Of a DNA stretch of 64,000 bases, positions 3,467-10,191 are shown piece by piece. The stretch is from Oleomonas cavernae (GTDB lineage Bacteria; Pseudomonadota; Alphaproteobacteria; Zavarziniales; Zavarziniaceae). How positions within the stretch are numbered: position 1 is the first letter of the stretch; each line of letters starts with the position of its first letter. The position numbers and the translations under genes are program-made. The notes under the pieces were generated by a model. That model did not search any database and was not told the DNA's origin. It was given only the letters and a program-made list of their open reading frames with translations. Location of the stretch: NCBI RefSeq assembly GCF_003590945.1, contig NZ_QYUK01000011.1, positions 1,888,001 to 1,952,000 on the forward strand, read 5' to 3'.

Positions 3467-4840
3467 GTGCTTCATCTCCATAACAGAGTGCTTCGCGCCG
3501 CCGGGGGAAAAGTGGTCAAGATCGTCAGCCAGCCGACCTCCATCCTGACCCAGCCGCTGAATCTCGAAATCAATGGCGCGCCCGGTACGCCCGGCGAAAT
3601 TCCTCCCTCGCCCCCCATCATCCCCGAATTCTTCGACCTTCCGTTCATCCTGAACGGCACGGTGGAGGCCGCATCGGCCAGCGGGTTTACGCTCACCCAC
3701 GCGGACTTGGCCGAGACGCAATTCTCCGGGGTTGCGGTCTCATTTCTGGAAACTGTTCCGCCCAGTCCCGGCCCGAAAGATGGGTTTGTGGTCCTCCGGT
3801 CCCACTCACCGGAAATCGAATTCCGTGGCATCGGCCTTCGGCATGACAGCGACGGCAATCCCATCAGCGGCCTGATCACCGGCTACTCGGCAACGGATTC
3901 CACCACCGGAAAGGTGATCTTCGAGATATCCGGCATAACCATCCACATCTCGTCGCTGATCGCGGCCGCACAGACAGAGACGACGGCGGACGATTTCCGC
4001 CTGTTCAACCTGGGCGGTGACGACCTCTTCATCGGCGGTGACGCCAGCGAGATGATCGACGCCGGTCGGGGCAATGACAGGCTTTTCGGCTTCGGCGAGA
4101 AGGACACGCTGCACGGCGAAGCGGGCAATGACCGGCTCTATGGTGGCGCCGATTCAGACAGGCTCGATGGCGGCGCGGGCCGGGATCTCCTGGACGGTGG
4201 CGAAGGTGCCGACCGGATGGTCGGCGGCAGCGGCGACGACGTCTACGTGGTCGACGCCAGCGACGACGTGGTGACCGAGCTTGCCGACGGCGGCAGGGAT
4301 ACCGTGCGCGCCTACGCGAGCTTCGAGCTTCAAGGACCGATCGAACATCTCATCCTTGTCGGCAACAGGTTGCTGTCGGGGACAGGCAGCGATCTCGACG
4401 ACTTCATCACCGGCAACGCCGGACGCAGCCATCTCTTCGGCAATGGCGGCAGCGACCGGCTGGATGGCGGCCAAGGCGCCGATGTGCTGAACGGTGGCCT
4501 GGGCCGCGACCACCTCGCCGGCGGTCAAGGGGCCGACCGCTTCGACTACGACTCCGTCGCGGACTCCAGGTCCGGCGGCCAGGGCAGCGACATCATCCTG
4601 GACTTCAGCATCGGCGAGGATCAGATCGACCTGAGTGGCATCGACGCCGACGGCGTGGCCAGCGGCGATCAGGGCTTCACCATCGCCGATCAGTTCCACG
4701 GCGCGGCGGGCGAATTGATCATCACCCACCGGAATGGCAGCACATTCATCTATGCCGACGTGGGCGGCGACGGCAGCGCGGACTTCGATCTTTGCCTGCG
4801 CGGCGAATACAGCCTGTCGGCGACCGATTTCCTGCTTTGA
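3467..4840 (+). CDS. RTX repeat calcium-binding protein, probable type I secretion substrate
   Basis: 457 aa counted from a GTG at 3467; GTG codons at 3488 and 3512 are also possible, and the last has a purine-rich stretch just before it. There is no Sec signal peptide. Residues about 183-262 and 316-365 carry glycine/aspartate nonapeptides of the GGxGxDxLx type (such as GGAGRDLLDG and GGQGADVLNG) that fold as a calcium-binding beta-roll. Between them is a segment typical of such proteins (RDTVRAYASFELQGPIEHL), and the end resembles the serralysin-type C-terminal domain. Type I secretion is inferred; no ABC/HlyD/TolC genes are in the window. The N-terminal 180 residues match no domain I know, so it may be an adhesin or matrix protein rather than an enzyme. 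Confidence 0.85.
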   Translation: MLHLHNRVLRAAGGKVVKIVSQPTSILTQPLNLEINGAPGTPGEIPPSPPIIPEFFDLPFILNGTVEAASASGFTLTHADLAETQFSGVAVSFLETVPPSPGPKDGFVVLRSHSPEIEFRGIGLRHDSDGNPISGLITGYSATDSTTGKVIFEISGITIHISSLIAAAQTETTADDFRLFNLGGDDLFIGGDASEMIDAGRGNDRLFGFGEKDTLHGEAGNDRLYGGADSDRLDGGAGRDLLDGGEGADRMVGGSGDDVYVVDASDDVVTELADGGRDTVRAYASFELQGPIEHLILVGNRLLSGTGSDLDDFITGNAGRSHLFGNGGSDRLDGGQGADVLNGGLGRDHLAGGQGADRFDYDSVADSRSGGQGSDIILDFSIGEDQIDLSGIDADGVASGDQGFTIADQFHGAAGELIITHRNGSTFIYADVGGDGSADFDLCLRGEYSLSATDFLL

Positions 4841-5441: not shown

Positions 5442-5975
5442 ATGAGTAGCATCCACCGCCTCGCCCTCGCGTTGTCCCTCGCGGCGGCGCCAGTGGCTGC
5501 TTTCGCCGCGACCCAGGGCAGCCTCGGGCCGACGTCGACCGGGTCCCTGGTGATCACCCTGGCGGCACCCAACCTAGTCCGCATCAGCGCCCTCGACGAC
5601 ATCAACCTCGGCACCTTCAGCGGCACGGCCCTGGCCGGCGGCGACGATGTCTGCATCTTCTCCAATACCGGCGGCTACAACGTGACCGCCAGCGGCGACG
5701 GCACCGGCAGCGCCTTCGAACTGACCGGCTTCAGTACCGGCGACGCCGTGCCCTACAATGTCCAATGGGCGACGACGGCCGGTGCCACCTCCGGCACGGC
5801 ATTGACCGCCGGCACCCCGCTCACTGGGCTTGGCGGCAGCTTCACTAACCCGACCTGCCGCGGCGGCGCCCAATTGAACGCCCGCGTCCTGGTCGACGTC
5901 ACCGAAGCCGTGCTGAGCGAAGCGCCGGCGGACAACTATACGGGGACCTTGACCCTGCTCGTCGAGCCGCAGTGA
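5442..5975 (+). CDS. pilin-like major subunit of a chaperone-usher system
   Basis: 177 aa from the ATG at 5442, chosen because GGGAGGAG sits just upstream and the sequence then begins with a normal signal peptide (MSSIHRLALALSLAAAP, cleavage near AFA-ATQ). The mature part is made of beta-type segments with two cysteines (DDVCIF and NPTCRGG) likely to form a disulfide, and ends in a strand-like YTGTLTLLVEP. First gene of an operon with a second similar subunit, usher and chaperone, so a secreted fibre subunit is the natural reading. It does not look like a classical FimA pilin; alternate (CS1-like) or Csu-like systems are closer. Export would be by Sec, then assembly through the usher. Confidence 0.75.
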   Translation: MSSIHRLALALSLAAAPVAAFAATQGSLGPTSTGSLVITLAAPNLVRISALDDINLGTFSGTALAGGDDVCIFSNTGGYNVTASGDGTGSAFELTGFSTGDAVPYNVQWATTAGATSGTALTAGTPLTGLGGSFTNPTCRGGAQLNARVLVDVTEAVLSEAPADNYTGTLTLLVEPQ

Positions 5976-5978
5976 GCG

Positions 5979-6470
5979 ATGGCGGGGCGGCTTCTCGCCT
6001 CCGCCCTCGCCGCGGCTCTCCTTGCCGGCCCCACGGCCGGTATCGTCCTGGGGCAGTCCGCCCAGATCGCGGGCCTGTCGGATGTGGCCTTTGGAACCTG
6101 GCCCGGCGCAGGCGACCTGGAGCGGGACATTCGCCTCTGTGTCCGGCGCACCGGCCCGGGCGGCGGTACTTATGACCTTCTTGCGGGCGGCGCCGCCGTC
6201 GGCCAGCACTTCGCGGTCGTGAACGGCGTGGTCAGCCTGCCCTTTTCGCTCTCCTTCAACGACGGCTCGGGCTGGCGCGAGGTGCCCGGCCCCAACAGTA
6301 CCCTGACCGGCCTGCGTGGCGCCGAACGCTCGCCCGCGCAGTTCAACAATTGCCTGGCCGGGCAGGGAACGCCCGAACGATTGCGCATCCGCTTCCTCGA
6401 ATCCGACCTCGCCCAGGCCCCCGCCGGACAGTATGCAGGCACGCTCATCCTCACCGTGTCCCCACAGTAA
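5979..6470 (+). CDS. second pilin-like subunit
   Basis: 163 aa, starting 3 nt after the first subunit stop, so translation is probably coupled. Signal peptide at 1-25 (MAGRLLASALAAALLAG...). The mature domain repeats the layout of its upstream neighbour: a strand with DVAFGTW in place of DINLGTF, a first cysteine in IRLCVRR, a second in FNNCLAG, and a closing strand QYAGTLILTVSPQ. It is likely a minor or tip-proximal subunit of the same fibre, although which subunit is major cannot be decided. The usher start overlaps its last 38 nt. Confidence 0.75.
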   Translation: MAGRLLASALAAALLAGPTAGIVLGQSAQIAGLSDVAFGTWPGAGDLERDIRLCVRRTGPGGGTYDLLAGGAAVGQHFAVVNGVVSLPFSLSFNDGSGWREVPGPNSTLTGLRGAERSPAQFNNCLAGQGTPERLRIRFLESDLAQAPAGQYAGTLILTVSPQ

Positions 6471-8921
6471 GCGCGCCGCAACACTGCTCGCCCTCTGGAT
6501 GGCGGCCTGTCTGCCGCCGCACGGGCCGGCGCGTGCCGCGGAGATCATCCAGACCGCGCCGCCCCCCGGCTTCGACGACCTGCGGCAGCCGCAGGACGCA
6601 CTGGTCGACGTGATCTATGACGGCGAGCCGATTGGCGCCTTCGCCGCAACCTTCCGGCCGGGCGCCATCCGCTTCGCCGATCCGGCAGCACTCGCCGGGG
6701 CCGTGCCCGGCCTCGCGGAGCGCGAGGCGGTGACCGCGGCGCTGAGCGGCGACCTCGAGACCCATGCGGAGCGGCTGTGCGGGGTGGCCCCGGTACCCGG
6801 CTGCGGCGTGCTCGAGCCCACGGTCGCCAGCGTCATCTTCGACGCCGACCGCTTCCGGGCGACGCTCTTCCTGGCCATCTCCTATCGCGGCACGGCAGCC
6901 GGCGGCCAATATCTGCCGGCGCCCGCCGACCGGCCGGGCTTCGTGCAGTCTTTCGCGGCGGCGGCGTCGAGCGGCGAGGACGACCTGGCCGGCTCGCGGA
7001 CCTCCGTGCGCTCCTTCTCGTTGCTGAGCCTGGGGGCTGCCCGCCTGATCGCCGACACGGCCGCCGATTCACAACAAGGCGGCGCCCTGGACCGGCTCGA
7101 GGTTCAATATGATCACGAGCGCTGGCGCGGCGAAGCGGGCCTTTACCGGACCACGCTGATGCCGCTCCTGGGCGAGCGGCGCTTCCTGGGCGCCGGGCTC
7201 ACCACCACGCTCGACACGCTGCGCGATGCGGACCAGGCCAGCGGCAGCCGCCTCTCGGTGTTTCTCGCCTCGCGCGGCCAGGTCGAGGTCTATCGCGAGG
7301 GGCGCCTCCTGAGCGCGCGGAGTTACGAGGCCGGCACGCGGGAACTCGAAACCCGCGACCTGCCGGATGGCGCCTATCTCGTGACCCTGCGCGTCGTGAC
7401 CCAGGGCAACGTGCGCGAGGAAACCCGCTTCTTCGTGAAGAACGCGGCGATTCCGCCCGCGGGCCTGCCGTTCTGGGAACTGGACGCCGGCGTGCTGGCG
7501 GACGACGACATCTCGCTGACGCCCGAGGCGGGCGGCACGCCGTTCGTCCACGCCGCCACGCGCTATCGCCTGTCCGATTCCTTCGCCCTGGGCGGCGACC
7601 TCGTCGTCGGCAGCCGGCAGCAGGGCATCGGCGGCCTGTTCTACTATCAGTTACAGCAAGTGCAACTGCAGCTCGACTCCTTCGCCAGCACGGACGGCGT
7701 CTACGGCCTGGGCCTGGCCGCGCGCGGCGACAACGGCCCTTTCAGCTACAGCGGTTCCATCCGGCGGATCTGGGGCGGCGAGGCGCCCCGGCGCAGGGCC
7801 GCGCAAGACACCGACGACGACCTGAGCTTCATCCTCCGCGACCCGGACGATCTCTTCGACGCGGGCGGCGCGGCAACCCAGGTCAACCTGGCGCTCGACT
7901 ATCATTTCGAAGACGGGCCGCACCTGGGGCTGCGCGCGCTCTATCTCGCCGGGGCCGACGACGTCGAGACCTATGCCGCCGGGCCGATCGTGTTCTGGCC
8001 GCTGTTCAGCGACGGCGCGCTGCGCCTCGACCTCTCCGCCCAGGCCACGGCAACCGAGGAACAGCAGTTCGTCTTTGCGCAGCTACGCCTCTCGTGGGGC
8101 GACGGGGACATCGACGTGACCAGCGAGGCCGGCTGGTCGGGCGCCGTCGCCGGCGACGAGCAGGGGGACAGCAGCAGCGGCCCCTTCGGGCGCGCCCAGG
8201 CGATCTGGCACACCGCGCAGGCTGCCGGCGAGCGGCTGGACCTGTCAGCCGCCACGGCGGCCGACAGCCGGCGCACGGAAGTCTCGGCCGGGCTCGACTA
8301 CCAGGGGCCGAAAGGCCGGGTCGACGCCGAGATCGCGCACGAGACCGACGGCGGCACCCGCTATGCCGGCAACCTCTTCGTCAATGTCGTGGGCGATCCC
8401 GATGCGCTCGCCTGGGGCGGCAACGAGGTGCGCGGCAGCGCCGTCATCGTCGCCGTGTCCGGCCGGCCGGACACCGTCTACCGGGTCCTGATCGACGAGC
8501 AGCCGCGGGCCGAGGTTGCCGCCGGCGCCAGGCTGGTGCTGCCGCTGGAGCCCTACAAGAGCTATGACGTCAGGATCGTCCAGAAGAGCGGCGGGCTCGT
8601 CGACTACGACGCCTCGCCCCGCCGGGTCACGCTCTACCCCGGCAACGTGACGACGCTTCAATGGAATGCGGCCCGTTTCGTCTCGCTCTTCGGCCAGGCG
8701 ACGACGCCCGGGGGGGCCCCCTCGCCAACGCGCGCATTCCGGCCCTGCAACCCGCGGCCTTCACCGATGCCGCGGGCTATTTCCAGGTCGAGCTCGGGGC
8801 CGACGCCACCGAGCTGATCCTGGCGCCGGCGGCCGGCGGAATCTGCCGCATTACCCTGCCGCCCCTGCCGCCCGAGCAGGATTTCGTCGAACTGGGCACC
8901 CTGCCCTGCCGATCCGAGTGA
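6433..8921 (+). pseudogene. outer-membrane usher (TcfC/CS1-like), frameshifted once in a G run
   Basis: Usher that would translocate the subunits across the outer membrane. The start at 6433 gives a signal peptide ending ARAAE. The first about 760 residues read in one frame, with alternating barrel strands, a plug-like region (QVEVYREGRLLSARSYEAG) and a C-terminal E-set-like region (VIVAVSGRPDTVYRVLIDEQ). At 8710-8716 a run of seven G precedes five C, and the frame drops out; adding one base restores TTPGGGPLANARIPALQP and a complete C-terminus ending LGTLPCRSE at 8921, 829 aa in all. As written the protein ends in an unrelated tail. The repair is exact, so a sequencing undercall is likelier than decay. 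The length and the alternate-pathway look fit CS1-type ushers. Confidence 0.8.
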
Positions 8922-8930
8922 GCCCGAGCC

Positions 8931-9622
8931 ATGCTGCGCCGCCCCGCCCTCCTCATCGTCCTCGTCGCCCTCGCCGGGCAGATCGGCACCGACGGCGCGC
9001 GCGCCCAGATGGCGCTCAACGAGGTCGTGGTCGAGTTCCAGCCCGGGGCCCTGCCCCGGGAAGACATCGAGGTGACCAATACCGGCGAGGAGAACCTCTA
9101 TCTTCAGGTCGAGCCGCGCGAGGTCCTGGCCCGGGGACGGACAGGGAGGAGCGCGTCGAGCGTGCCAATCCCCACGATCTCGGCCTGCTGGTCAGCCCGA
9201 CCCGCCGGGTGATCGAGCCCGGGGCACGGCGGCTCGTGCGCCTCAGCCTTCTGGAGGCGCCGACCGACCGCGAGCGGGTGTGGCGCGTCGCGTTCCGGCC
9301 GATGGTGGGCGAGACCAGTGCCGAGGGCTCGGCGCTCAAGGTGCTGGTTGCCTATAATATCCTGGTCATCGCCCTGCCGCCCGCCCCCCGGGCCGAGGTG
9401 GCGGCAAGGCGCAACGGCCGGACCTTGTTCCTCGAGAACCACGGCAACAGCAACGCGCTGCTGTTCGACGGCCGCCAATGCGACGCCGCGGGCGGCAACT
9501 GCCGGGAACTGCCGAGCCGGCGGCTCTATGCGGGCAACGACTGGCGGCTGGAACTGCCCTACGACACGCCGGCGGAGTGGCGCGTCGAGGTCGCCGGCAA
9601 GATTCTCAACAACCGCTACTGA
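8931..9622 (+). pseudogene. periplasmic pilus assembly chaperone, frameshifted once in a C run
   Basis: PapD-superfamily chaperone that would stabilise subunits in the periplasm. It starts 9 nt after the usher, with a signal peptide (MLRRPALLIVLVALAG). The first 66 codons read in one frame up to PREVLA, then the frame must change near 9130; inserting one C in the run CCC gives EVLAPGTDREERVERANP and continues to LGLLVSPTRRVIEPGARR, the typical G1-strand region, ending at 9622 (230 aa). The C-terminal domain carries the conserved pattern FLENHGNSNALLFDG with two cysteines (QCDAAGGNCRE). Same defect class as in the usher 420 bp upstream. Confidence 0.8.
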
Positions 9623-9633
9623 CCCTTCCGGCG

Positions 9634-10191
9634 TTACTCGGGCTCGAGGACGACCAGGCCCGCGGCGGGGCTCGGGCCGGGCTTCAGGCTCAGGCGCGCG
9701 TCCGTCGTGCAGCCCGCCGGGTCGCTGCGCACGCGGGTTCCAGCACCCGGCGTGCGGCCCAGGGCCGCGGCGACGGCTCCATCGAGGCAGGGGCTCGACG
9801 ATCTCGACGATACCGGGGTCGCAACGCCCGCGGCTGCGTTGCGATCGGGAATGACCAGGGTTATCCCTGCGCTGGCCGTGGACGAGCGGCCGAGCACGCC
9901 GTCCGACGCTGCCAGGGCCGGCGCGGGGACGGCAGCGGCCAGCAAGGCCGTCAGGGTCGCGGCGAAGGCGGCCATGCGTGTCTGCTCGGCGAGGACGGCG
10001 TCGAGGCGCCCGGCGCTCAGCCGGCCGCGGCGGACCAGAATATCGCCGATGCGCTCGCCGGGCGCGGCCGCCCGGGCCTGCAGGGTCAGGGCCTCGGAAA
10101 GGTCGTCGGGGGTGACCCAGCCGTGCGCGAGCAACAGATCGCCCAGCCGCGGCGGGGCCACCACATTTCGAATGTCGCGCAGTAAATTCAT
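9634..10191 (-). CDS. MshEN-like tandem c-di-GMP motif fused to a short pilin-like exported domain
   Basis: 184 aa from the ATG at 10191; a GTG at 10239 would add 16 residues, and neither has a clear ribosome site. Residues 15-38 and 47-70 are two copies of the MshEN/GspE N-terminal motif, RLGDLLLAHGWV... and RIGDILVRRGRL..., each ending in LxxxLxxQ, as described for c-di-GMP binding in MshE. Then comes a signal-peptide-like hydrophobic stretch (about 72-94) and a domain that opens with SDGVLGRSSTASAGITL, very like the major pilin mature start TQGSLGPTSTGSLVITL, and ends LVVLEPE like the pilin end. No ATPase domain follows. The gene is convergent with the chaperone, 11 bp apart. c-di-GMP binding and a link to the pilus are inference. 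Confidence 0.6.
   Translation of the reverse strand: MNLLRDIRNVVAPPRLGDLLLAHGWVTPDDLSEALTLQARAAAPGERIGDILVRRGRLSAGRLDAVLAEQTRMAAFAATLTALLAAAVPAPALAASDGVLGRSSTASAGITLVIPDRNAAAGVATPVSSRSSSPCLDGAVAAALGRTPGAGTRVRSDPAGCTTDARLSLKPGPSPAAGLVVLEPE

Follow-up and report, generated by a model that had tools for sequence, protein, structure and literature searches.

An MshEN_N-type c-di-GMP receptor domain ahead of the predicted signal peptide of a pilin-like protein in Oleomonas cavernae

Overview of the gene

Within a stretch of 64,000 nucleotides from the genome of Oleomonas cavernae (the window; the genome is labelled G000), a short gene encodes a c-di-GMP receptor domain of the MshEN_N type, followed in the same polypeptide by a predicted Sec-type leader, the mature N-terminus of a pilin, and a short tail. 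The protein, P0001, is the product of the 9634-10191 open reading frame; translation puts its ATG at 10191 and its stop codon at 9634-9636 on the minus strand, for a length of 185 residues, and its gene lies beside a chaperone-usher pilus operon. An earlier note on this DNA had described a tandem MshEN module, leader and pilin-like start next to such an operon, at the same coordinates and on the same strand, and that description has held up. Its interpretation has fared less evenly: the ATPase-free MshEN module, the leader that passes the membrane and the start derived from a pilin all stand, an inner start finds no support, and a permanent membrane tether is doubtful.

The signal molecule c-di-GMP, which makes bacteria change from swimming to sticking, has enzymes and gene switches as its usual targets. 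To our knowledge, a route from c-di-GMP to surface adhesins is known in few systems only: LapD, the type IV pilus ATPases, and the cellulose synthases. Our leading reading, held tentatively, is that P0001 is the precursor of a minor pilin-like subunit, with a cytosolic c-di-GMP receptor heading its Sec signal peptide and gating export or retention. If true, no link between the signal and a surface fibre could be shorter than this one, in which the receptor is part of the pilus subunit precursor itself. The gene and its parts are as follows.

9634..10191, minus strand: MshEN - signal peptide - pilin-like gene (P0001), 185 aa ORF
10078..10149, minus strand: MshEN motif I, RLGDLLLAHGWVTPDDLSEALTLQ, residues 15-38 (profile, motif table, PDB sequence search)
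9982..10053, minus strand: MshEN motif II, RIGDILVRRGRLSAGRLDAVLAEQ, residues 47-70 (profile, motif table, PDB sequence and fold search)
9910..9981, minus strand: predicted Sec-type signal peptide, TRMAAFAATLTALLAAAVPAPALA, residues 71-94 (sequence inspection, motif table, model)
9841..9909, minus strand: pilin mature N-terminus, donor-strand-like, ASDGVLGRSSTASAGITLVIPDR, residues 95-117 (profile and pairwise tests)
9637..9840, minus strand: remainder of the pilin-like tail, weakly supported, residues 118-185

The frame is open throughout, and the coding signal is good in the MshEN region, the leader, and both the start and the end of the tail. In the middle of the tail, at about 9740-9880, the signal is poor in all frames, so the exact sequence there is insecure; given this weak signal, a double frame slip inside the tail was considered. 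No promoter- or terminator-like site was seen near the gene.

The receptor domain

Residues 15-70 match the full 53-position NCBIfam model NF053729 ('c-di-GMP_motif') with an E value of 9.4e-14 and 50.9 bits, against a curated cut-off of 38 bits. The region carries two RLGxx[LVI][LVI]xxG..LxxxLxxQ motifs, the pattern tested for, which together make one MshEN_N domain, and each motif retains the principal residues that contact the ligand (R, L/I, G, G, L, L, Q; PMC5013675). The suggestion that two stretches ending in L..Q form an MshEN module is thus borne out by the profile search of the head as well as by the contact residues. The Pfam model PF05157 gave no match to P0001, which fits with the presence of the N-terminal half, MshEN_N, only. 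The second-best NCBIfam match was NfrB, a c-di-GMP-activated glycosyltransferase that, like P0001, is a non-ATPase membrane protein with MshEN_N; NfrB, however, is a multi-pass enzyme in which the MshEN part lies elsewhere in the chain and does not head a signal peptide.

Comparison with known structures points the same way. A phmmer search of the PDB with P0001 found MshE (5htl, E 0.0012) and the c-di-GMP domains of PilF, with E values down to 7e-8. A model built from the single sequence, of low confidence in the leader and tail, predicts a four-helix bundle like that of 5htl across the MshEN region (pLDDT about 76-94), and its only meaningful fold match in the PDB is 5htl_A, MshE with bound c-di-GMP (Foldseek probability 1.00, rmsd 1.5 Å over 61 columns, 39% identity). 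In MshE the two 24-residue motifs are separated by a spacer of 5 residues (PMC5013675), whereas the spacer in P0001 has 8. P0001 therefore resembles MshE of V. cholerae and the GSPII domains of PilF in its two 24-residue motifs, predicted bundle and contact residues, and differs from them in its spacer, in lacking MshEN_C and an ATPase, and in having a signal peptide directly after the domain. Profile searches of the 185 residues found no secretion ATPase domain of the GspE/PilB/MshE type C-terminal to the MshEN region, as the earlier note had observed. Its remark that such modules normally belong to secretion ATPases was too narrow, for several other known proteins also carry the MshEN domain (PMC5013675).

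A head of this kind need not be a sensor. It could be insensitive to c-di-GMP and serve as a neutral or structural element, such as a handle by which the signal peptide is dimerised or targeted. Position 11 is Arg in motif II and Trp in motif I of P0001, and in XpsE, which does not bind, one of the changes is an Arg at this position of motif I (PMC5013675); some modules of the relative G198, described below, lack the leading Arg. However, neither motif of P0001 has lost its principal contact residues, and the isolated MshEN_N of MshE binds c-di-GMP with a KD of 0.35 uM (PMC5013675). An insensitive head is on balance improbable, and from the conserved contacts P0001 is predicted to bind c-di-GMP.

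The leader and its junction with the receptor

Two residues beyond the last motif Gln of P0001 there is an Arg, followed by a hydrophobic run and an A-x-A end, a pattern recognised by eye, as was the predicted cleavage between ALA and ASDG. A signal peptide sitting behind 70 residues is unusual. In the structural model one helix, residues 60-87, extends from the ligand-contact helix into the leader; this continuity is suggestive at most, since model confidence drops along the leader. All intact MshEN-leader proteins tabulated have a basic residue 2-5 residues past the last Gln, with a hydrophobic run directly behind it. By eye, 12 of 13 MshEN-leader proteins inspected have a leader ending in A/V/S-x-A at the expected cleavage site.

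The earlier note had offered, as a simpler reading, an inner start that gives a separate pilin. Homology is unbroken over the junction (see below), and inspection of the sequence ahead of residue 73 revealed no clear ribosome site, so this reading finds no support.

The pilin-like tail

A profile was built from the mature N-termini of seven alpha-pilins, encoded in the window and in other Alphaproteobacteria, for which the common pattern is roughly A[AT]xxGxxGxxS[ST]G. Among 562 ORFs of the window, the site at residue 94 of P0001 is the second best, after the pilin itself, with a score that is reached by 0.04% of shuffles; omitting the neighbouring pilin from the profile changed the result little. 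This agrees with the pilin-like start that had been noticed behind the hydrophobic leader, and the match begins at the predicted cleavage site. The likeness is short. Only the first 25 residues of the tail were aligned with alpha-pilin by hhalign, and past residue 117 there is no recognisable pilin; at 91 residues, against about 140-155 for a full pilin domain, the tail falls short of such a domain. Its end, LVVLEPE, is visibly like LLVEPQ, over very few residues.

These features bear on the main rival to our reading, which was also the main reading of the earlier note: an uncleaved one-pass sensor. The leader would here be a membrane anchor, and a c-di-GMP-driven change or dimerisation of the MshEN part would alter a pilin-like stub in the periplasm, where its donor strand encounters the growing fibres, an inside-out arrangement as in LapD. 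The order of a cytosolic receptor and then a single hydrophobic helix suits such a sensor, the stub, at 91 residues, looks closer to a decoy or a stop piece than to a complete pilin, and one relative (G072) has no clear A-x-A site. That said, cleavage-type ends are kept in 12 of 13 proteins with unrelated cargo, and they make cleavage and release at least as likely as a permanent tether; of the proposal that P0001 is tethered by one membrane pass, the membrane-passing leader survives and the permanence is in doubt. We regard the one-pass sensor as possible and rather doubtful. The exported subunit is favoured because the pilin match starts at the cleavage site and because cleavage-type ends are kept across unrelated cargo.

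The parallel with the LapD-LapG-LapA system, in which internal c-di-GMP controls an adhesion factor beyond the inner membrane, is one of principle only. Profile searches of P0001 found no HAMP, degenerate GGDEF-EAL or LapD-type periplasmic output domain, and unlike LapD the protein would join receptor and exported effector in one polypeptide.

The adjacent chaperone-usher operon

The gene for P0001 converges on a pilus operon, the chaperone of which ends 11 bases from the P0001 stop codon.

5442..5975, plus strand: major alpha-type pilin, mature start ATQGSLGPTSTGSLVITL
5979..6470, plus strand: second pilin/adhesin-like subunit
6463..8921, plus strand: CooC/TcfC-type (alpha) usher, with a frame slip at a G/C run near 8695-8720
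8931..9622, plus strand: PapD-type chaperone, with a frame slip near 9131

In profile searches the usher bears TcfC and CooC_C domains. With this usher, a PapD-like chaperone, and pilins that match the mature start of P0001, the operon resembles the alpha-type (CS1/Tcf) chaperone-usher pili. In those parts of the literature that were available to us, no described member of an alpha-type pilus with a c-di-GMP receptor ahead of a subunit was found. Shortly upstream of the operon, at 3467-4840 of the window, lies a gene for an RTX-like repeat protein (GGxGxDxL repeats).

The usher and the chaperone of the window each contain one single-base frame slip, and since both are thus frame-broken in the assembly, this copy of the pilus may be inactive. 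The slips could be either homopolymer errors of the assembly or signs that the pili of this strain are decaying. A stronger form of the second view holds that the architecture is real and the window copy a pseudogene cluster, the tail of P0001 being a remnant. A second usher of the same genome (L113:4999-7907) is also split between two frames, the coding signal of the tail is weak at 9740-9880 with only the pilin start recognisable, and no homologue was found in the genomes of the same genus. Yet the slips fall in G/C homopolymer runs, a frequent place for errors of assembly, and P0001 keeps an open frame with good coding signal in the MshEN region, the leader and the end of the tail. Decay of the locus is an unlikely reading, and the architecture stands regardless of the slips because relatives carry it as well.

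Relatives in other genomes

A first scan of genome contigs with P0001 gave no relative, and a protein search of 60 related genomes returned weak MshEN matches only, with no good one in the same genus. Surveys for the MshEN motif across the class and the phylum did turn up the same layout in other genomes. Short MshEN ORFs set aside in the process were nitrile hydratase alpha chains, contig-edge ATPases, AAA ATPases and tyrosine kinases.

Two alphaproteobacterial metagenome-assembled genomes, G198 and G290 (SI053_bin31 and SI054_bin61; the names presumably indicate an origin in Saanich Inlet), encode relatives in which three MshEN modules precede the leader and a pilin domain ends the protein. 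P0001 and the G198 protein (L131) share 38% identity over 104 residues (BLASTP, E 4e-7) in an alignment that runs unbroken through MshEN, leader and pilin start, and the junction segment of P0001, taken by itself, gives z 6.1 with G198 and z 4.1 with a further genome, G755. The tails of the G198, G290 and G755 proteins match the alpha-pilin profile at full length (hhalign 96%, E 1e-9). A three-sequence structural model of the G198 protein was of low confidence (mean pLDDT 43). Because homology spans the junction to G198 and the layout recurs in further genomes, these comparisons argue that the fusion of MshEN, signal peptide and pilin is no local accident. The halves are evidently not always separate genes, for continuous homologues with a conserved junction exist. 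That an MshEN fragment was joined to a pilin gene by chance or in the assembly might be suspected from a draft assembly in which P0001 is unique in its genus as searched; homology over the junction to an independently assembled genome, and the further lineages, already contradict it and leave it very hard to credit.

An usher lies beside the MshEN-leader-pilin gene in three of four lineages (G000, G198/G290 and G065). In G198 and G290 two pilins and a TcfC/CooC_C-type usher lie downstream of the MshEN gene, while a TcfA-like chaperone gene is found behind the MshEN gene on the opposite strand; this operon is homologous to that of the window. The G198 usher (L065:12081-15878) has a C-terminal SPOR (peptidoglycan-binding) domain, which is unusual on an usher. 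G065 is a more distant case: its MshEN gene runs divergently from an adjoining usher and SCPU-domain subunit, and the pilin likeness of its tail is weaker (z 2.9 against its own SCPU-type subunit). The fourth lineage, G755, departs from the pattern, with no usher beside either of its two MshEN genes and no TcfC-type usher found genome-wide. The second of these genes (L123:7098-7817) has an SCPU-like ending and no clear leader, and is perhaps frame-shifted.

Usher genes are rare in the class (14/289 and 26/289 genomes for two usher models), and so the chance that a random gene lies within 5 kb of one is about 0.05%, or ~1/2000, as estimated from rounded usher counts and genome sizes. Other TcfC-type usher loci that were examined had no MshEN gene, which makes the link recurrent, not general.

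A candidate mechanism

The last helix of MshEN_N, whose LxxxLxxQ residues contact the ligand in MshE, enters the signal peptide of P0001 within two residues, and it is here that a gate might operate. Binding of c-di-GMP would leave the bundle folded or clamped beside the leader, and so could decide the fate of the subunit: entry into the Sec channel, retention at the inner membrane, or cutting by signal peptidase. A cut subunit would be freed with a normal pilin N-terminus and might join the fibre of the adjacent usher, as its start, stop or cap. Cleavage and an effect on the fibre are predictions, and c-di-GMP could act in either direction.

The same head on other exported proteins

The MshEN head is not confined to pilins. 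In three alphaproteobacterial genomes MshEN and a leader, with the same gap of 2-5 residues, precede LapG-type cysteine proteases, and further types carry other cargo.

L075:4065-4988, L076:4446-5345 and L126 around 4.4 kb: MshEN-leader-LapG (Peptidase_C93), E about 1e-22 for the two scanned
L067:9294-9938: MshEN-leader-LapA-retention-like domain, NF033682 E 1.4e-8, below its cut-off
L107:4397-5113, L108:4698-5429, L109:4829-5641 and L111: MshEN-leader-FilA/DUF6160-like, weak matches

The genomes of the FilA/DUF6160-like type belong to the same phylum and appear to be Gammaproteobacteria-like. The junctions of the LapG, LapA-like and FilA-like proteins could not be aligned with that of P0001 (z -1.1 to 1.1), so a common origin with P0001 is unsupported there, and these fusions may be separate in origin.

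That one head occurs on several unrelated exported proteins, mostly tied to adhesion and spread over two proteobacterial classes, suggests a device of general use. MshEN plus signal peptide might conceivably be a movable cassette that puts the export of a protein directly under a second messenger, an idea that we put forward as speculative. In such a cassette, c-di-GMP beside the signal peptide would set the export or holding of one adhesion factor, be it a pilin, a LapG protease, a LapA-like retention piece or a FilA-like protein, and would do so without transcription, an ATPase or a separate receptor. The recurrence of the layout in distant bacteria suggests that c-di-GMP may act on single adhesion proteins during their exit from the cell. 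In the portions of the literature consulted, MshEN was nowhere mentioned together with ushers, and neither a LapG fusion nor a signal-peptide fusion came up.

The proteins of G352 and G473 show the MshEN and signal peptide layout of P0001, with an exported part that is FilA/DUF6160-like, not a pilin, and are perhaps akin to PA3740 of P. aeruginosa. If the cassette reading is true, PA3740-type proteins, in which MshEN is joined to an uncharacterised part, would gain a testable mode of action. The MshEN gene of G352 lies near rplS, as PA3740 presumably does too. In a published list of MshEN proteins, PA3740 is linked to swarming and its partner domain is given as uncharacterised (PMC5013675).
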